Position numbers and translations under genes: made by a program. The notes under the pieces were generated by a model, which saw only the letters and a program-made list of their open reading frames with translations, was not told the DNA's origin and did no database searches. From Acidobacteriota bacterium (lineage in GTDB: Bacteria; Acidobacteriota; Vicinamibacteria; Vicinamibacterales; SCN-69-37), in the NCBI GenBank assembly GCA_020853395.1, contig JADYYY010000010.1, positions 1-64,000 of the forward strand: a stretch of 64,000 bases of DNA. The letters are read 5' to 3'. This document shows positions 26,225 to 57,896 of this stretch, piece by piece (position 1 is the first letter of the stretch; the number at the start of each line of letters is the position of its first letter).

Positions 26225-27082
26225 CTACTCGGGATCGAACTCCCCGCGCATCAGCCGCGCCCGGCACCGGTGGGCCCGCGCAAAGGCGTCCTGCACCCAG
26301 CGGCCATCGGCCAGATCCGTCTGATGCGGGAGCCGGTCGAGCACGTCCCGCAGCGCCGCGCTCACGTTGTCGGCGTTGTCGGCGAGGATCGCCTGCCACA
26401 TGTCGGCCGGGCTCGAGGCGAGACGGGTCATCTCCTTGAACGCACGGCCCGACGCGGCGAGCCCGCGATCACCCGTGGCGTCGACGGTGGCGTTCATGAG
26501 CGCCACGGCGAGCACCTGCGGCGCGTGGCTGACGTAGGCCACGACACGATCGTGCGTCTGCGCATCGGTCCATCGAGGTGCCGCACCGAGCCCTCGCACG
26601 AAGCGCTCGACACGCCGGCCGTCGTCTCCCGGCTCGCCGGCGGCGGCGACCAGCATCCACGGCCGGCCGTCGAACAGATCGGGCCGCGCGTGCGCGAGGC
26701 CGCCCTGCTCGCTGCCGGCCATCGGATGGCCGCCGACGAAGTGCGGGAGCGCCGCGGCGGCCGCCGCGGCCATCACGCGACGCTTCGTCGATCCAACGTC
26801 CGTGACGATCGTCTCGACGTCCAGATCGCGGATCGCCGCCATCAGCCCGGCCATCGCCGCCACGGGCGTGGCGAGCACGATGAGATCGGCCGCCGCGAGA
26901 TCGCGTACGTCGTCGGTGTAGCGGTCGGCGATCGTCCGCTGTCGCGCCTCGTCCAGCGACTCGCCCCGATCGCAGCCGATCAGCTCCACGTCAGCCCAGC
27001 GCGCCCGCGCCGCGAGCGCGACCGACCCGCCGATCAATCCTAGCCCGGCGACGCCGATGCGGCGAAATGGCGGCTCACTCAC
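26225..27082 (-). CDS. tyrA: Prephenate dehydrogenase (TyrA)
   Basis: NAD-dependent oxidation of prephenate (or arogenate) on the tyrosine branch. In 285 residues: Rossmann motif IGVAGLGLIGGSVALAARAR, ATPVAAMAGLM, the substrate loop GGHPMAGSEQGGLAHA with catalytic His, and VVAYVSHAPQVLAVALMN. No chorismate mutase or ACT domain is attached, so feedback inhibition by tyrosine is not obvious. GTG 27082 overlaps the trpA end by eight bases, placing a tyrosine gene inside the tryptophan operon. Confidence 0.93.
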   Translation of the reverse strand: MSEPPFRRIGVAGLGLIGGSVALAARARWADVELIGCDRGESLDEARQRTIADRYTDDVRDLAAADLIVLATPVAAMAGLMAAIRDLDVETIVTDVGSTKRRVMAAAAAAALPHFVGGHPMAGSEQGGLAHARPDLFDGRPWMLVAAAGEPGDDGRRVERFVRGLGAAPRWTDAQTHDRVVAYVSHAPQVLAVALMNATVDATGDRGLAASGRAFKEMTRLASSPADMWQAILADNADNVSAALRDVLDRLPHQTDLADGRWVQDAFARAHRCRARLMRGEFDPE

Positions 27083-27866
27083 CGGACGTCCCCTTGAGCC
27101 AGCGGATGAACGCCTCGACGCGGGCGGGCACGTCGCCGCCCGTCCGCGTCGCGTCGGCGATCACCTGGACGAGCGCGCTGCCGACCACGGCGGCGTCGGC
27201 GAACCGCGTCACCTCGCGAACGTGCTCGGGCCGGGAGATGCCGAAGCCGAGCGCCACCGGCAGCGACGTCACCTCGCGCACGCGCTCGACGAGCGGTGCG
27301 GCCGACTCGGCCACCGCGTCGCGCGCGCCCGTCACGCCCAGACGCGAAATGGCGTACAGAAAGCCTCGTCCAAGACGCGCAGCTTCGCGCAGGCGCGCCG
27401 GCGTCGTGGTCGGGCTGACGAGAAAGATCTGATCGATTCCTCGGCGCGCCAGCGCATCTCTCGTCGCTGCCGACTCCTCGATCGGCAGATCGAGCAGGAG
27501 CACGCCGTCCACGCCGGCGTCGGCTGCGCGCGAGACGAACTCCTCCGTGCCCATCCGCAGGACCGGGTTGACGTACGTGAAGAGCACGACCGGCACGTCG
27601 AGGTCCGGGCGAACCGAGCGCACGAGATCGAGCGCCCGGCGCATCGTCGTCCCGCCGGCGAGCGCCCGCTCGATGGCCCGCTGGATGACCGGCCCATCGG
27701 CGATCGGATCCGAGAACGGCACGCCGACCTCGAGGACGTCGGCGCCGCCGCGGGCCATCGCGCGCAACACGTCGGCAGACCGCGCGACGTCCGGATCGCC
27801 GGCGGTGGCGAACGCGACGAGCTTCGGCTGGCCGGGACGCGCGAACGCCTGCGCCAGCCGGCTCAT
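27075..27866 (-). CDS. trpA: Tryptophan synthase alpha chain
   Basis: Cleaves indole-3-glycerol phosphate to indole for the beta subunit. In 263 residues: [11 protein letters not shown], catalytic Glu in [19 protein letters not shown], catalytic Asp region [10 protein letters not shown], and [10 protein letters not shown] for phosphate binding. ATG 27866 overlaps trpB by four bases. The gene ends inside the start of tyrA. Confidence 0.97.
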
Positions 27867-29119
27867 CGCCCCGCCTCCCCCACCGGCGTCTCGACATCGT
27901 CGCCCATGAGCTGGCGCACCGTCTCGACGTCCTTGTCGCCGCGGCCCGAGATGTTGAGCACGACGACGGTGCCGGGGGACAGTCGGGGCAGCGCGTCCTC
28001 GACCCAGGCGACCGCGTGCGACGACTCGAGCGCCGGCAGGATCCCCTCGTGGCGCGCCAGCCACGCGAACCCGCGGAGCGCGCGCGCATCGTCAATCCAC
28101 GCGTACTCGGTGCGTCCCTGCGCGGCGAGCCACGCGTGCTCGGGCCCGATGGACGGATAGTCGAGGCCGGCGGACACCGAGTGGGTCGGCAGGATGTTCC
28201 CGTCCTCGTCCTGCAGCAGCAGGCTCCGCGTTCCATGGAGTACTCCGGGCCGTCCGCCCGCGAAGCGCGCGGCGTGATCGCCCGGCGTGATGCCGCGGCC
28301 GCCCGCTTCGACGCCGACCAGACGCACGGTCGCATCGCCGACGAACGCGTCGAAGATCCCGATCGCGTTGCTGCCGCCGCCGACGCACGCCACGACCAGG
28401 TCGGGCAGCCGGCCGGCCTGCGCGCGCACCTGGCGCCGCGCCTCCTCGCCGATCACCGACTGGAACTCGCGGACCATCAGCGGATACGGATGCGGCCCGA
28501 GGGCGGACCCGAGCAGGTAGTACGTCGTGCCGACGTTCGCGACCCAGTCGCGCATCGCCTCGTTGATCGCGTCCTTGAGCGTCCGGCTGCCCGCGTCCAC
28601 GCCGGTCACGGTCGCCCCGAGCATCCGCATGCGGAAGACGTTCAACGCCTGCCGCGCCATGTCGTCCGTCCCCATGTAGACGACGCAGTCGAGGCCGAGG
28701 AGCGCGCAGGCGGTGGCGGTCGCGACGCCGTGCTGGCCGGCGCCAGTCTCGGCGACGATCCGCCGCTTGCCCATGCGCGTGGCGAGCAGCGCCTGCCCGA
28801 GCGCGTTGTTGATCTTGTGCGCGCCGGTGTGCGCGAGGTCCTCGCGCTTCAGGAACAGCCGCACGCCGGTCGTGCCGGCAGCGCGCCGCGCCTCGGACAG
28901 CGGCGTCGGCCGGCCGACGTACTCGCTCAGCAGCGTGCGAAGCGCGCCGGCGAACGCGGGATCGCGGCGCGCCGCCTCGTACGCGGCGGTCAGCTCGTCG
29001 AGCGGCGCCATCAGCGTCTCGGGCACGAAGCGCCCGCCGAACTCCCCGAAGTAGCCATGGCGATCCGGATCGCGACGGCCAAAGGCGGGCCCGGGCGTCT
29101 CGATCACTCCGTCAGTCAC
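27863..29119 (-). CDS. trpB: Tryptophan synthase beta chain
   Basis: PLP enzyme joining indole and serine. From GTG 29119 it has 418 residues. Seen: [24 protein letters not shown] Lys in [20 protein letters not shown], catalytic Glu in [16 protein letters not shown], phosphate cradle [12 protein letters not shown], and C-terminal [16 protein letters not shown] 29119 overlaps the trpF stop by four bases; an upstream extension in frame would lie wholly inside trpF. Confidence 0.97.
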
Positions 29120-29760
29120 GCGTCCTCCGATCTCACGCCGGCCACGGCGTCGATGAACGCCCGCAGGCGCTCCGGGCTCTTCACACCGGCGGCACGTTCG
29201 ACACCTGACGAGACGTCGACGGCCCACGGCCGCACGACGCGCACGGCCTCGGCGACGTTGTCGGCTGTCAGCCCGCCCGCGAGCACGAGCGGACGCGCGC
29301 GCGCGAGCCGCGCCGCCCGCGTCCAGTCGGCGCGGCGGCCGGTGCCGCCACGCGCTGTCGGATCGACCGCGTCCACGAGCGCCAACACATCCCGCGGCAG
29401 CGCCACCGCCTCGGCCAGCGCCTCATCATCGTCGATCGCTGTGCGCTTGAGGAGGCGAGCGCCTACGTCGCGATAGTCGGCGACGCGCTCCTCGCCGTGG
29501 AGCTGCACGGCGCCGAGACCGGCCGCGCGCACGACCCCGGCCACCTCGTCGGGCGCCGCATCGACGAAGACACCCACGAGCGTCACGAACGGCGGCACGG
29601 CCGCCGCGATCTCGCGGATCGACCGGGGCTCGACGTATCGCGGGCTCTCACGCCAGCAGATGAACCCGAGCGCGTCGGCGCCGAGATCCACGGCCAGCGC
29701 GGCGTCCTCCGCGCGCGTCAGCCCGCAGATCTTGACCCGCACACGCTCCACGCGATTCAT
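29116..29760 (-). CDS. trpF: Phosphoribosylanthranilate isomerase
   Basis: Amadori rearrangement step of tryptophan synthesis in a (beta/alpha)8 barrel of 214 residues. Seen: [25 protein letters not shown] with the catalytic Cys, [19 protein letters not shown], and the phosphate-binding end [13 protein letters not shown] plus [12 protein letters not shown] 29760 overlaps the trpC stop by four bases. Confidence 0.96.
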
Positions 29761-30554
29761 GGCTCGCGCTCGGCCTGCGACACCAGCGACGCCAAGGCGG
29801 CACCAGGATCCGCCTCGGTCATCAATCGCTCGCCGATGAGAAATGCCTGATAGCGCACCCGCGACAGCCGGCGCAGGTCGGCGGCCGTGCGCAAGCCGCT
29901 CTCCGCAACGGCGACGACGCCCGGCGGAATGGCGGCGCCCAGCCTGTCGAGCAGCGACGTGTCCACCTGCAACGTCCGGAGATTCCGGCTGTTGACGCCG
30001 ATGACCGCGGCGCCCGCATCGACCGCACGCGCCAGCTCGTCGTCGTCGTGCACTTCGACGAGCGGCGCCAGGCCGACGGCCAATGCCTGTGCGTGCAGCG
30101 AGGTCAGCTCCTGCTGGCTCAGCGCGGCGACAATCAGCAGCACCGCATCGGCACCGGCTGCCGCCGCTTCGATCAACTGGTAGCGCGTGACGACGAAGTC
30201 CTTCCGAAGGAGGGGCAGATCGACCGCCGCGCGGATCTGACGCAGATGGTCGAGCGAGCCGTCGAAGAAGCTCGGCTCGGTCAGCACCGAGATCGCCGCG
30301 GCACCGGCGCGTGCGTACGTCGTCGCGATGGCGACCGGATCGTACGCGGCACGCAGGATGCCTTTCGACGGCGACCGCCGCTTGCACTCGGCGATCACGC
30401 GAATGCCGGGCGCCGAGAGGCTGCGGCGGAACCCTTCGCCGTCGGGTGCGCGCGTGAGGCGCCGCTCGAGCTGTGCGGCCGGCACGAGCCGCTCGCGTTC
30501 CTCCGCCGACCGACGCGCGCCGGCCACGATCGCCTGCAGCAGGTCAGCCGTCAT
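29757..30554 (-). CDS. trpC: Indole-3-glycerol phosphate synthase
   Basis: Closes the indole ring from CdRP. In 265 residues: VIAECKRRSPSKGILR with the catalytic Lys, ISVLTEPSFFDGSLDHL, LLRKDFVVTRYQLIEA, LVEVHDDDELARA, IGVNSRNLRTLQVD and VAVAESGLRTAADL. It is separate from trpF, unlike the E. coli fusion. Overlaps trpD and trpF by four bases each. Confidence 0.97.
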   Translation of the reverse strand: MTADLLQAIVAGARRSAEERERLVPAAQLERRLTRAPDGEGFRRSLSAPGIRVIAECKRRSPSKGILRAAYDPVAIATTYARAGAAAISVLTEPSFFDGSLDHLRQIRAAVDLPLLRKDFVVTRYQLIEAAAAGADAVLLIVAALSQQELTSLHAQALAVGLAPLVEVHDDDELARAVDAGAAVIGVNSRNLRTLQVDTSLLDRLGAAIPPGVVAVAESGLRTAADLRRLSRVRYQAFLIGERLMTEADPGAALASLVSQAEREP

Positions 30555-31561
30555 CGGGTGTAATGGCGCCGCAGCGCATCCAGTGCGGCGCGCGCCGCGC
30601 CGCCGTCGATGCTCCGTGCCGCCTGAGCGATGCCGTCGCGCAGCGATCCGGCCCGCCCGGCCACAAGCAATCCGGCGGCGGCGTTGAAGAGGACGACGTC
30701 GCGCTGTGGGCCGGAGGCGCCGGCAAGCACGCGTTCGATGATCGCGGCGTTCTCCTGCGCCGTGCCACCGGCGAGGTCGCCGGCCGCCGCGACCGGCAGA
30801 TGCACGTCCGCCGGGTGCACGTAGAACGTCCGCACCGATCCGCGGTGCAGCTCCGAGACCTTCGTGTGGCCGAGCGTCGACAGCTCGTCGAGGCCGCCGG
30901 CGCCGTGCACCACCCACGCCCGTTCGGCGCCGAGCGCGCCGAGCGCCTGCGCCAGGAGCGCCGTGTGCTCGGGGCGCGACACGCCGATGATCTGGCGTTC
31001 GGCACCCGCCGGGTTGGTGAGCGGCCCGATCAGATTGAAGACCGTGCGCACGCCCAGCTCACGGCGGGTTGGGCCAGCGTGCCGCATCGACGGATGCCAG
31101 GCGGGCGCGAAGAAGAACGCCAGGCCCGCCTCGAGCGCGCCGGCCACGCGCTCGGCGGGCGCGGCCAGCTCGAGGCCAAGCGCCTCGAACACGTCGGCCG
31201 ATCCGCTCCGGCTCGACACCGCGCGGTTCCCGTGCTTCGCGACGCGCACGCCGGCGCCGGCCAGGACGATGGCCGCGGCAGTCGAGACGTTGAAGGTGTG
31301 CGCGCCGTCGCCCCCCGTGCCGCAGGTGTCGAAGACGCCGCGCACGCGCGCTGGCAGCGGGACCGCGCGCGCTTGCATCGCCCGCGCGAACCCGACCAGC
31401 TCCGACGGGCGCTCGCCTTTCAACGCGAGCGCCATCAGCAACGCCGCGATCTGCGACGGCTGCCGCTCGCCGTCCATGATCGCGCCCATCTCCTCGGCCG
31501 CCTGCTCGGCCGAGAGATCCTCGTGGCGCCGCAACTGCTCGAGCAGGTCGGCGACGCTCAC
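30551..31561 (-). CDS. trpD: Anthranilate phosphoribosyltransferase
   Basis: Transfers phosphoribose from PRPP to anthranilate. In 336 residues: the PRPP site DTCGTGGDGAHTFNVSTAAA, AKHGNRAVSSRSGSADVFEALG, and VFNLIGPLTNPAGAERQIIGV. GTG 31561 overlaps the trpG stop by four bases. It is not fused to a glutamine amidotransferase, which is the separate trpG upstream. Confidence 0.97.
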   Translation of the reverse strand: MSVADLLEQLRRHEDLSAEQAAEEMGAIMDGERQPSQIAALLMALALKGERPSELVGFARAMQARAVPLPARVRGVFDTCGTGGDGAHTFNVSTAAAIVLAGAGVRVAKHGNRAVSSRSGSADVFEALGLELAAPAERVAGALEAGLAFFFAPAWHPSMRHAGPTRRELGVRTVFNLIGPLTNPAGAERQIIGVSRPEHTALLAQALGALGAERAWVVHGAGGLDELSTLGHTKVSELHRGSVRTFYVHPADVHLPVAAAGDLAGGTAQENAAIIERVLAGASGPQRDVVLFNAAAGLLVAGRAGSLRDGIAQAARSIDGGAARAALDALRRHYTR

Positions 31562-32130
31562 GCTCTCACCTCGAGGAAGTTCTGCAGCAGCCGGTGCCCC
31601 ACCGTGGTCATGACCGACTCGGGGTGGAACTGCACGCCGAACACCGGCAGCTCGTCGTGGCCGATGCCCATGATGGTCCGGTCATCCTCCACCCACGCGG
31701 TGATCCGGAAGCCGCTCGGCATCCCATCGCGCGGTATCACGAGGGAATGGTAGCGCCCGGCGTCGAACGGCTCGGCCACGCCGTGAAAGAGCGTGGAACC
31801 GTCGTGCCGCACCCGCGAGATCTTGCCGTGCATCGGCACGGCGGCGCGCTCGACCCGCCCGCCGAACGCGATCGACAGCGCCTGGTGGCCGAGGCACACG
31901 CCGAGCACCGGAATCCGTCCGGTGAAGTAGCGCAGCGCGTCGATCGTGACGCCCGCGCTTTCCGGCCGTCCCGGTCCAGGCGAGATCACGAGACGCTCGG
32001 GATGGAGGCCGGCCAACGCCTCGAGCGGCATCGCGTCGTTGCGGACGACCTTGACGTCCGCGCCGAGCTCGCCCAGGCGGTGCGCCAGGTTGAACGTGAA
32101 GGAGTCGTAGTTGTCGATGAGCAGAACCAT
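31558..32130 (-). CDS. trpG: Anthranilate synthase, glutamine amidotransferase subunit
   Basis: Supplies ammonia from glutamine to TrpE; TrpG proteins of this kind sometimes also serve 4-amino-4-deoxychorismate synthase. In 190 residues: VLLIDNYDSFTFNLAHRLGE, LVISPGPGRPESAG, the nucleophile Cys in VLGVCLGHQALS, and catalytic His-Glu in VQFHPESVMT. The ATG overlaps the last base of the trpE stop (TGATG). No second pab copy is in the window. Confidence 0.97.
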   Translation of the reverse strand: MVLLIDNYDSFTFNLAHRLGELGADVKVVRNDAMPLEALAGLHPERLVISPGPGRPESAGVTIDALRYFTGRIPVLGVCLGHQALSIAFGGRVERAAVPMHGKISRVRHDGSTLFHGVAEPFDAGRYHSLVIPRDGMPSGFRITAWVEDDRTIMGIGHDELPVFGVQFHPESVMTTVGHRLLQNFLEVRA

Positions 32131-33599
32131 CACAGCCCCTGGTGCGCCATCTCGAGCGCCTGCATGAGCGCACGTGCCTTGTCGCGAGTTTCCTCGTACT
32201 CGGCGGCGGGCGTCGAGTCGGCGACGATGCCGGCGCCGGCCTGGATGCGCACGCGCCCCTCGCGCATGGTGATCGTCCGGATCGCGATGCAGAAGTCGAG
32301 GTTGCCCGCGAAGTCGAGATACCCGACCGCGCCGCCGTAGAGGCCGCGCCGCGCCGGCTCGAGCGCACCGACGATCTGCATGGCCCGGATCTTCGGCGCG
32401 CCCGTGAGCGTGCCGGCGGGAAACGCGGCGATGAGCGCGTCGAGCCGATCGCGATCCGCCGCCAGCCGCCCTTCCACGCGCGACACGAGGTGCATCACGT
32501 GCGAGTAGCGCTCGATCGCCATGTACTCGGCCACGCGCACGCTGCCGATCTCGGCCACGCGGCCGATGTCGTTGCGCCCGAGATCCACCAGCATGACGTG
32601 CTCGGCACGCTCCTTCTCGTTCTGGCGCAGCTCGTCGGCGAGCTGGCGGTCTTCCTCCTCGGTCGCCCCGCGCCGGCGGGTGCCGGCAATCGGATGGGTC
32701 TCGACGTGCCGGCCCTCCACGCGCACGAGCATTTCTGGTGACGCGCCGATGATGGCGTCGGCACCCATGCGGATGAAGAACATGTACGGCGACGGGTTCA
32801 CGTGGCGAAGCGCGCGGTAGATGTCGAACGGCGATGCGGTCGTGTCGGCGTCGAACCGCTGCGACAGCACGGCCTGGTAGATCTCGCCGGCCGCGATGTC
32901 CTCCTGGATCTGGCGGACGGCCGCCTCGAACGCTTCGCGCGTCTGATTGGCGGCGAACGCGAGCGGCCCCGGATCGACGCGCCGCGGCCGCGACAGTGTC
33001 CCCTCCAGCTCGCGCTCGAGGAACGCGATCTTCGCGCAGGCGAAATCGTAGAGCGCGCGCAGGTCGGCACCCGGCCGCACGCGGGCGTTCGAGATCGCCA
33101 GGATGCGGTGCTTCACGTGATCGAACGCGAGCACCGTGTCGAACACCATGAAGGCCGCGAGGTCGCGGTCGAGCGGCAGCACGGCGAGCGCGACCGCCGG
33201 CTCGAACCACTCCGCCGCGTCGTAGTCGACGTAGCCGACGGCGCCGCCCGTGAACCGCGGCAGGCCCGGCACCGTCGGCGACTGGAACTCCGTCATCAGC
33301 TCGCGGAGCACGTCGATGAACGGCTCGGTGCGCGTCCGCTCCGTGCCCGACTCCTCGATCACGGTCTCACCGGCGCGGCCGCGAACGACGAGGAACGGGT
33401 CCTTGCCGAGAAACGAGTACCGGCCGACCTGTTCGCCCCCCTCGACGCTTTCGAACAGGAACGCATAGTCGGCGTGCTCGGCGATCTTGAGGAAGGCCGA
33501 GACCGGCGTCAGCAAGTCCGCCATGATCTCCCGGCACACCGGGACGAACGTCGCCCGGCGGGCCAGCTCCGCGAAGTCTTCGTAAGAGGTCTGTGTCAT
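32130..33599 (-). CDS. trpE: Anthranilate synthase, chorismate-binding subunit
   Basis: First committed step from chorismate to tryptophan. In 489 residues: an N-terminal domain with LLTPVSAFLKIAEHADYAFLF, where the SAFLKI-like stretch corresponds to the tryptophan feedback site, then the chorismate domain with IQEDIAAGEIYQAVLSQRF, SPSPYMFF-type segment, IAGTRRRGATEEEDRQL, VDLGRNDIGRV, and FPAGTLTGAPKIRAMQI. The feedback site suggests allosteric control in addition to attenuation. ATG 33599 overlaps the aroDE stop by four bases. Confidence 0.97.
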   Translation of the reverse strand: MTQTSYEDFAELARRATFVPVCREIMADLLTPVSAFLKIAEHADYAFLFESVEGGEQVGRYSFLGKDPFLVVRGRAGETVIEESGTERTRTEPFIDVLRELMTEFQSPTVPGLPRFTGGAVGYVDYDAAEWFEPAVALAVLPLDRDLAAFMVFDTVLAFDHVKHRILAISNARVRPGADLRALYDFACAKIAFLERELEGTLSRPRRVDPGPLAFAANQTREAFEAAVRQIQEDIAAGEIYQAVLSQRFDADTTASPFDIYRALRHVNPSPYMFFIRMGADAIIGASPEMLVRVEGRHVETHPIAGTRRRGATEEEDRQLADELRQNEKERAEHVMLVDLGRNDIGRVAEIGSVRVAEYMAIERYSHVMHLVSRVEGRLAADRDRLDALIAAFPAGTLTGAPKIRAMQIVGALEPARRGLYGGAVGYLDFAGNLDFCIAIRTITMREGRVRIQAGAGIVADSTPAAEYEETRDKARALMQALEMAHQGL

Positions 33600-35041
33600 G
33601 GCGCGTCGTTCCTCGTGCGTGCGATGAAAGCGTCCGCGGCCTCGGCCATCACGGCCGCCGGCGCCGGCTGGCCGGTCCACCACTCGAACTGATGGCAGGC
33701 CTGGCCGACCAGCATCTCGAGACCGCCGAGCACGTCCGCGCCGGCGTCGCGAGCGAGCCGCAGCAGCCGGGTCTCGCGCGGGTTGTAGACGAGGTCGTAG
33801 ACGAGCCCTCCGCCGATCGCCGCCGGCTCCAGCGGCGACACCTCGACCGACGGCCACGTGCCGACCGGCGTCGTGTTGACCAGCAGATCCCACCCGGGCA
33901 CGGGCGGCCACGGCACGGCGGCGGCGCCGAACTCGGCGGCGACGCGTTCGGCCTGATCGGCGCGGCGCGCCGCGACCTCGACGCGCGCGCCTTCGCGCGC
34001 CAGCGCCCAGGTCACGGTGCGGGCGGTGCCGCCGGCGCCGAGCACGACGGCGCGACTCCCACGCAGCCGCCGCCCTTCGCGGCGAAGCGGCGCCAGGAAC
34101 CCGCTCGCGTCGAAGTTGCGCCCTTCCCAGCCGTGGTCGCGCCGGCGCAGCGTATTGACCGCGCCGATCGCCGCCGACAGATCGTCGGTCGACGCGACGC
34201 GCGCGTGCATCGCCGGCTTGAGCGGCGCCGTCACGCTCAGGCCGCGCACGCCGAGCGCCTCGGCCGCCGCGAGCAGATCGTCGGCGTCGCGCGACTCGAA
34301 CGTGACGTAGATCGCATCGAGCCCGAGCGCGTGGAACGCCGCGTTGTGCATGGCCGGCGACGCCGAGTGCACGAGCGGTGCGCCGGTGATCCCGTAGACG
34401 GCCGTCGACGCGGAGGCCATCGTGACTCGATAGACGTCGATCATCTCCCCCGCGGTCACCTGGCCCGGCGCGTTCGACCCGCCGTACGTCCAGCACGAGC
34501 CGAACAGCCAGGGGCACAGGCGGCTGACCTGTCCGGCCGCGCCCATGGCGATCGCCACGTGCGGACGATCGAGGCGCATCGCCTCGCGCAGCGTCAGGCA
34601 CTCGCCCAACCGCGACGGCGTCACTGCAACCTTGATGACGTCGGCGTCCTCGGCCGCCATGGCCCGCACCCGATCGGCGAGATCCGCCGGCACGCGCTCG
34701 AAGTCGTGATGCGAGACGACGAGCGCCGTCCGGCCGCGCTCCGCGAAACGCCGGCGGTCGGCCCGCCACTCGACGTCCACGTACTCGGCACCGAGCGCGA
34801 CGGCACGCGCCAGGATGCCGAGCCGTTCCTCCTCGCTGCCGTCGAAGTGCCCGCCTTCCCAGCGCGCCCGGCAGGTGACGATGACGGGCGTGCGGCGGCC
34901 GGCGAGGACAGCCGCCACGTCCAGATCGTCCACGCCGTCGATGCGCAACTCGACCAGGCCGGCGACCGCCCGATCCCGCCCCGCGCGCACCTCGGCCGTC
35001 GTCCGGCCGGTCACGACCTCGACGACTTCGACTCCTGCCAT
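33596..35041 (-). CDS. aroDE: Bifunctional 3-dehydroquinate dehydratase (type I) / shikimate dehydrogenase
   Basis: A 481-residue fusion doing steps 3 and 4 of the shikimate pathway. Residues about 1-215 are a type I dehydroquinase: VELRIDGVDDLD, TCRARWEGGHF, catalytic His in VVSHHDFERVP and the Schiff-base Lys in ADVIKVAVTPS. Residues about 218-481 are shikimate dehydrogenase: YGITGAPLVHSASPAMHNAAF, SVTAPLKPAMHARV with the catalytic Lys, GAVNTL, the NADP motif VVLGAGGTARTV and LVNTTPVGTWP. Such AroD-AroE fusions are known in plants and some bacteria. ATG 35041 was preferred to an upstream TTG. As first gene of the trp run it sits directly after the attenuator and overlaps trpE by four bases. 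Confidence 0.94.
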   Translation of the reverse strand: MAGVEVVEVVTGRTTAEVRAGRDRAVAGLVELRIDGVDDLDVAAVLAGRRTPVIVTCRARWEGGHFDGSEEERLGILARAVALGAEYVDVEWRADRRRFAERGRTALVVSHHDFERVPADLADRVRAMAAEDADVIKVAVTPSRLGECLTLREAMRLDRPHVAIAMGAAGQVSRLCPWLFGSCWTYGGSNAPGQVTAGEMIDVYRVTMASASTAVYGITGAPLVHSASPAMHNAAFHALGLDAIYVTFESRDADDLLAAAEALGVRGLSVTAPLKPAMHARVASTDDLSAAIGAVNTLRRRDHGWEGRNFDASGFLAPLRREGRRLRGSRAVVLGAGGTARTVTWALAREGARVEVAARRADQAERVAAEFGAAAVPWPPVPGWDLLVNTTPVGTWPSVEVSPLEPAAIGGGLVYDLVYNPRETRLLRLARDAGADVLGGLEMLVGQACHQFEWWTGQPAPAAVMAEAADAFIARTRNDAP

Positions 35042-35063: not shown

Positions 35064-35099
35064 AAAAAAAGCCCCTCCAGTCGTTCGACTGAAGAGGCT
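35064..35099 (-). terminator. Trp attenuator: intrinsic terminator hairpin before aroDE
   Basis: On the minus strand AGCCTCTTCAGTCG (35099-35086), AA, CGACTGGAGGGGCT (35083-35070) form a 14-bp stem with two G-U pairs, followed by seven T residues (35070-35064). This is the clearest intrinsic terminator I see in the window. It lies between the leader peptide stop and the aroDE ATG, so it should stop transcription unless its 5' arm is captured by the antiterminator. Confidence 0.9.
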
Positions 35100-35153
35100 G
35101 TCCATCCCGCTGCGCGATGTCGTGCTAGCTGCGCCCGCGATCCCCTTCAGCCA
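35086..35153 (-). promoter_or_regulatory. Trp antiterminator pairing (leader regions 2 and 3)
   Basis: TGGCTGAAGGGG (35153-35142) can pair over 12 positions, three of them G-U, with CCTCTTCAGTCG (35097-35086), the 5' arm of the terminator, so the two structures exclude each other. The same upstream segment can instead pair with region 1: CCCCT (35213-35209) with AGGGG (35146-35142), and CCATC (35206-35202) with GATGG (35155-35151). This reproduces the 1:2 / 2:3 / 3:4 logic of known trp leaders. Derived by hand pairing, without energy calculation. Confidence 0.75.
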
Positions 35154-35226
35154 TCGGCCCACACCACCACCAGTACGACCAGGTCGTCCGGCGGGCGTCG
35201 AGATGGACAGGGGCGAACGCGGTCAT
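35125..35226 (-). CDS. trpL: Trp operon leader peptide
   Basis: A 33-codon reading frame from ATG 35226 to TAG 35125-35127. Codons 16-21 read Trp-Ser-Tyr-Trp-Trp-Trp (35181-35164), four Trp codons in six, in the frame directly ahead of the terminator. Ribosomes starved for charged tRNA-Trp should stall there, leaving the region-2 segment free to pair with region 3 and let transcription enter aroDE-trpEGDCFBA. A Tyr codon inside the control run could add weak tyrosine sensing. No clear ribosome site precedes the ATG; the predicted transcript begins only about five bases upstream. Confidence 0.85.
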   Translation of the reverse strand: MTAFAPVHLDARRTTWSYWWWCGPMAEGDRGRS

Positions 35227-35238
35227 CGCGTGCCACGG

Positions 35239-35267
35239 AGAGTACCAGAGGACCGCAGCGCGGTCAA
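35239..35267 (-). promoter_or_regulatory. Candidate promoter of the trp/aro operon with overlapping palindrome
   Basis: TTGACC (35267-35262) and TACTCT (35244-35239) are 17 bases apart on the minus strand. The -35 match is good and the -10 match moderate. A perfect inverted repeat GACCGC-GCT-GCGGTC (35265-35251) covers the -35 box and spacer and could be a repressor operator. Predicted start is near 35232, five or six bases before trpL. A second -10-like TATAGC near 35299-35294 lacks a partner. Confidence 0.45.
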
Positions 35268-57822: not shown

Positions 57823-57896
57823 GCGGGCTTAGCATAGTGGTAATGCTCTGGCTTCCCAAGCCAGCTAGACGGGTTCGATTCCCGTAGCCCGCTCCA
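57823..57896 (+). tRNA. tRNA-Gly (anticodon CCC) with encoded CCA
   Basis: The cloverleaf can be drawn in full: acceptor GCGGGCT with AGCCCGC, D stem GCAT/ATGC, anticodon stem CTGGC/GCCAG around TTCCCAA (anticodon CCC), T arm ACGGGTTCGATTCCCGT. The 3' CCA is encoded (57894-57896). TATGAT at 57805-57810 is positioned as a -10 box. It reads GGG codons. Confidence 0.95.

Follow-up and report, generated by a model that had tools for sequence, protein, structure and literature searches.

Which signal sets the expression of the aromatic amino acid genes in this bacterium, and how many amino acids does it sense? The question arises from an element upstream of these genes in the window, i.e., the whole stretch of 64,000 nucleotides that was analysed. 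The initial annotation described the element as a ribosome-mediated tryptophan attenuator before aroDE-trpEGDCFBA. From the start of its leader ORF to its T-run, it occupies positions 35226-35064 of the minus strand, ahead of aroDE-trpEGDCFBA-tyrA. Judged from its sequence and from those of its relatives, the element is very probably a Trp-responsive, ribosome-mediated transcription attenuator. The proposed location before aroDE-trpEGDCFBA holds, and the first gene is an aroD-aroE fusion, but the operon continues to tyrA.

The genes of the operon are all on the minus strand. The first, aroDE (33596-35041), encodes a fused type I 3-dehydroquinate dehydratase and shikimate dehydrogenase, and its matches to TIGR01093, TIGR00507 and PRK09310 are all below the curated cut-offs. 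Protein family matches identify trpE (32130-33599), trpG (31558-32133), trpD (30551-31561), trpC (29757-30554), trpF (29116-29760), trpB (27863-29119) and trpA (27075-27866). A gene for a tyrA-type prephenate dehydrogenase (26225-27082) overlaps trpA by 8 bases and is conserved downstream of trpA in relatives. The order aroDE-trpEGDCFBA is found in all 38 stretches checked, as far as each of them reaches, and tyrA follows the trp genes in every one that is sufficiently long. In relatives whose stretches are long enough, a DAHP synthase gene lies between trpA and tyrA, with the exceptions of G007 and G042. By its gene content, the operon in relatives is an aromatic supraoperon, with the pathway entry enzyme, the mid-pathway fusion, the Trp branch and the Tyr branch. 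The trpA/tyrA junction of the window (27082-27075) is without the DAHP synthase gene that was seen there in 34 relatives. Within the window's own genome (4.28 Mb in 21 contigs), the best match to the DAHP synthase of the operon is only 31% identical (C2:311619-312389), so another type of DAHP synthase presumably serves.

The predicted leader ORF has 33 codons followed by TAG and spans 35226-35125, with its ATG at 35226 and the stop codon at 35127-35125. Translated from the minus strand, the leader peptide is MTAFAPVHLDARRTTWSYWWWCGPMAEGDRGRS. Its putative regulatory codons (35181-35164) are UGG UCG UAC UGG UGG UGG, corresponding to W16, S, Y18, W19, W20 and W21. Both the length of 33 codons and the Trp-Ser-Tyr-Trp-Trp-Trp stretch that had been annotated can be read directly on this strand. 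Thus, a short candidate leader ORF with a run of codons for a product of the operon precedes that operon. The run of Trp codons was correctly recognized, but Trp is not alone, since Tyr codons are conserved as well.

The best promoter in the region has a -35 element TTGACC (35262-35267, minus strand) and, after a 17-nt spacer, a -10 element TACTCT with an extended TGG (35239-35244, minus strand). The -10 element ends 12 nt before the leader ATG. Relatives have the same arrangement: TTGAC-N17..19-TAnnnT occurs in 76 of 84, versus 0.2 expected in shuffled sequences, and a median of 12 nt separates the end of the -10 element from the first in-frame start codon (within 17 nt in 59 of 80). Because this sigma-70-type promoter is only about 12 nt before the leader start, the predicted 5′ UTR has few nucleotides and the leader mRNA would be nearly leaderless. 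We infer that transcription starts a few bases upstream of the leader ATG.

Downstream of the leader ORF and upstream of aroDE is an intrinsic terminator. Its hairpin (35099-35070) has 13 bp, a GAAC loop and a predicted free energy of -22 kcal/mol, and it is followed by seven T (35064-35070). The annotated hairpin and its seven T are therefore present, but the stem is 13 bp rather than 14. The terminator is not that of an upstream gene and serves only the leader transcript, because the adjacent gene is divergent (35350, plus strand). The 5′ arm of the terminator (region 3, 35087-35099) can pair either with the 3′ arm (region 4, 35070-35082) or with an upstream segment, GGCUGAAGGGG (region 2, 35142-35152), which lies within the leader ORF. 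Region 2 (35152-35142) is complementary to 35097-35087 over 11 positions, one fewer than the annotated 12, with a duplex energy of -17.7 kcal/mol that none of 100 shuffles equalled. Thus, the antiterminator shares the 5′ arm of the terminator, and the two structures are mutually exclusive. Overall, the 201-nt leader RNA folds better than shuffled sequences (z = -2.7; 4 of 200 shuffles were as good).

Classic attenuators also have a region 1 that protects region 2, and a pairing of this kind was annotated. In the minimum-energy fold of the window's leader, region 2 is indeed paired with a possible region 1 (CCCCUGUCCAUC, 35213-35202), but this pairing is weakly conserved and the duplex does not exceed shuffles: the best upstream partner of region 2 ranks 76 of 100 against shuffled upstream sequence. 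Among 77 leaders, a rank of at most 5 of 100 is reached by 9, versus 3.9 expected. Region 2 pairs with upstream sequence at a mean of 0.61, compared with 0.51 in shuffles (Wilcoxon P = 0.0009), and its pairing exceeds the shuffle mean in 51 of the 77. A classic 1:2 protector helix is thus at best weakly supported across relatives. The translating ribosome presumably does much of the work by covering region 2.

We found the element to be conserved across the order Vicinamibacterales. AroDE was found in 92 of 100 relatives, and upstream regions of 84 loci from 15 families were compared. Nearly all of these regions have a short frame with two to four clustered Trp codons at a constant distance from the terminator, whose sequence is near-constant (AGCCTCTTCAGCC...GGTTGAAGAGGCTTTTTT). 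We built a covariance model, R1, from 80 relatives' sequences. In this alignment, strong conservation is seen in most columns of UGGUGG, of the region 2 core, of regions 3 and 4 and of the T-run, many of them at 90% identity or more; the mean column identity is 40%. The terminator is paired in 97.1% of alignment cells and exhibits 51 changes on both sides of the helix, versus 12.9 in shuffles. The antiterminator is paired in 89.9% of cells, compared with 40-57% for slid partners, and has 34 both-side changes versus 12.7 shuffled. Segment 3 thus covaries with both region 2 and region 4, which fits the requirement of an attenuator. A consensus predicted by RNAalifold, without the terminator as input, recovers the same terminator. 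Strong R1 matches (E ≤ 3e-7) occur in 143 of 162 genomes of the order, including 53 of the 62 outside the model-building set, for which matches to the RNA alone were counted. Had the Trp codons or the hairpin been missing in relatives, the annotated attenuator would be in doubt; instead, nearly all relatives have both, together with the covarying terminator and antiterminator.

A few relatives (G042 and G053) retain the terminator while their Trp runs are degenerate. One of these (L045 / L109 in G042) belongs to an operon without DAHP synthase, and could be a decaying attenuator. A different locus (L092, G002:C2:25934-27433) has one in-frame TGA inside the AroDE reading frame.

The classic logic of ribosome-mediated attenuation is supported by the leader, the terminator, the antiterminator, conservation and covariation. 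The last Trp codon is about 15 nt upstream of region 2 (median 15, IQR 12-16 across leaders), and region 2 ends about 10-15 nt before the stop codon (median 10 across leaders). Given the footprint of the ribosome, a ribosome stalled at the Trp run would stop just short of covering region 2, whereas one at the stop codon would cover part of it. The following sequence of events can be proposed. Transcription would begin a few bases upstream of the leader AUG; a ribosome would load at once and follow the polymerase. When charged tRNA-Trp (and probably tRNA-Tyr) is plentiful, the ribosome would pass through region 2 to the stop codon and block the pairing of regions 2 and 3. Regions 3 and 4 would then form the terminator, and the operon would be off. 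A shortage of Trp (or Tyr) would instead make the ribosome stall in the W/Y run, whose last Trp codon is about 15 nt, or one ribosome edge, before region 2. Region 2 could then pair with region 3, no terminator would form, and aroDE-trpEGDCFBA-tyrA would be transcribed, along with the DAHP synthase gene in most relatives. The stalling, the read-through and the response to Trp are predictions of this model; a response to Tyr is a less certain one.

The case for Tyr comes from the distribution of its codons: in 72 of 79 leaders, they lie next to or within the Trp run. Close to the run, Tyr accounts for 18.5% of the residues other than Trp, versus 1.7% earlier in the leaders and 1.7% in the proteins of the operon. 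This enrichment is specific to the reading frame, with 95 Tyr codons around the run when it is read in frame, versus 0 and 5 in the two alternative frames. The predicted stall region thus has conserved codons for a second end product, Tyr, as is expected of a multivalent leader. The codons have no fixed place: 29 are before the run, 24 inside it and 42 after it. Among 74 distinct run contexts, Tyr is present elsewhere in 34 of the 41 that have no Tyr after the run, versus 14 of the 33 that do (P = 0.0005). Leaders without Tyr number 7 of 74, whereas 18.3 are expected if Tyr positions are independent; shuffling within families gives 12.8 (P = 0.001), a comparison in which relatedness is only partly controlled. 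None of eleven other residues tested for this position-shifting retention departs from expectation. Selection that retains at least one Tyr codon would produce this pattern, again with the relatedness of the sequences only partly controlled.

A fixed constraint at the level of individual bases was considered as a source of the Tyr enrichment and is disfavored. The frame and position tests argue against it, although a skew of the third base toward UAU (UAU:UAC is 62:33, versus 579:1322 in the operon genes) would be compatible with it.

Some leaders also have codons for the third aromatic amino acid. Leaders of family f14 carry several Phe codons, and five of them, from small genomes (L049, L052, L054, L056 and L061), have Trp, Phe and Tyr together (e.g., WFWFIYF and WWWFFYF), hinting that all three amino acids might be sensed.

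We consider it slightly favored, given these codon statistics, that the leader senses Tyr as well as Trp. The main competing explanation is that the same attenuator responds only to Trp, with the Tyr codons kept for RNA shape, ribosome pacing or effects of the peptide. The UAU skew could reflect such an RNA constraint, and the Phe codons of family f14 are likewise unexplained. There is also a precedent, in that the AroR leader of Corynebacterium (Phe-Tyr-Phe) has a Tyr codon, yet the availability of Tyr was without effect (PMC11802643). On the other hand, what is conserved is the Tyr residue, whether it precedes, interrupts or follows the run, and not a single base position, it appears in the reading frame alone, and the operon makes Tyr in addition to Trp. 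A response to Trp only is thus a serious contender that falls somewhat short of an even chance. The likeliest device is one that senses Trp and probably also Tyr, in view of the pattern of Tyr codons and of the DAHP synthase and tyrA genes in most relatives' operons.

The predicted near-leaderless start and the lack of TrpR over cut-off in 21 genomes resemble trpL of S. meliloti, whose transcript begins at the ATG (PMC7298713), and raise the possibility that attenuation is secondary to a main action in trans, by the RNA of the leader or by its peptide, like that of rnTrpL/peTrpL. However, conservation of the leader peptides is poor outside the W/Y run and the C-terminal stretch whose codons form region 2, and the terminator and antiterminator covary, so we regard a main role in trans as very unlikely. 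Even less probable is a constitutive terminator that trims expression of the operon, with the Trp-rich ORF being due to chance or passive. The terminator is the most conserved part of the element, but such a role does not account for the fixed spacing between the Trp run and region 2, the covarying antiterminator or the promoter that is conserved immediately upstream of the ORF. We find it least credible that TRAP, TrpR or a T-box, which are known to control trp operons elsewhere, acts through the same terminator, because searches of 21 genomes found none over cut-off, and the leader has no Rfam match at the gathering score. In these 21 genomes, a search for the TrpR family gave one sub-threshold match (G012), and searches for TRAP (PF02081) and the T-box (RF00230) gave none, while controls in known hosts were detected. 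Rfam leader families, including Trp_leader, do not match at the gathering score or even at E ≤ 5. The only match in the window at the gathering score is a tRNA gene (57823-57893, plus strand).

Elsewhere in the phylum, R1 matches are weak, and several of them immediately precede trpE, aroDE-trpE or a TrpB-like gene. Clustered Trp codons together with a terminator were detected on the coding strand in 11 of 60 stretches, versus 1 of 60 on the other strand; the proportion of 11/60 is enriched because the 60 include loci picked for R1 matches, and L200, which is among the 11, belongs to Vicinamibacterales. Trp leaders of different sequence occur in several other acidobacterial families, which suggests that the strategy is old in the phylum. 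In these families, one operon with tyrA was found, and its leader has Tyr; the others are mixed, which is too small a set to correlate leader Tyr codons with tyrA. Two loci of family f85 (L181 and L182) have a Trp-run leader and a terminator before a TrpB-like gene, as a separate attenuated unit. Their TrpB-like proteins are 35% and 32% identical to TrpB of the window, and a DAHP synthase gene follows in L181.

Attenuation of trp operons by leader peptides is a textbook mechanism in E. coli. Like trpL of E. coli and other enteric bacteria, the element has a leader ORF with Trp codons, alternative antiterminator and terminator structures, a T-run and a biosynthetic operon downstream. It differs in that region 2 is inside the leader ORF, the 1:2 helix is weakly conserved and the predicted start is nearly leaderless, and also in its conserved Tyr codons, its aroDE...tyrA operon, the absence of TrpR and the lack of an Rfam match at the gathering score. 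The S. meliloti trpLE(G) system (rnTrpL/peTrpL) shares a Trp leader at or near the 5′ end of the transcript and the absence of transcription repression (PMC7298713). However, its attenuator controls trpE(G), and its leader is described with Trp codons only. The trp attenuators of Corynebacterium and Streptomyces are also classical attenuators before trp operons outside Proteobacteria, but they are described without aroDE, DAHP synthase or tyrA, and no Tyr codons are reported (PMC1262725). The aroR-aroF attenuator of C. glutamicum similarly has two kinds of aromatic codons before a gene for entry into the shikimate pathway, but these are Phe-Tyr-Phe with no Trp, and Tyr is reported to have no effect (PMC11802643).

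According to a 2010 survey, Proteobacteria and Actinobacteria were the only groups with known leader-peptide systems until the Firmicutes case that it presented, and predicted attenuators in Acidobacteria were almost without assigned functions (PMC2965389). In the open literature, we found no description of a trp leader-peptide attenuator in Acidobacteria/Acidobacteriota, in line with the initial annotation's suggestion for an acidobacterial host, which this one is (Vicinamibacterales-type). The only related paper is a statistical treatment of leader genes (PMC4833913). Within the open literature, then, the kind of attenuator is known, while the added Tyr codons and the acidobacterial setting appear to be new.

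The element thus extends leader-peptide attenuation of trp genes to the Acidobacteriota on strong comparative evidence, and the RNA model marks where the aromatic operon begins throughout Vicinamibacterales. On balance, we lean toward an order-wide, repressor-free and nearly leaderless attenuator that would sense Trp and Tyr, and in one family perhaps Phe, to set the level of the whole aromatic supraoperon: DAHP synthase, aroDE, all trp genes and tyrA. With about 75 distinct variants, it offers a natural example in which a single leader may respond jointly to two end products of a branched pathway.
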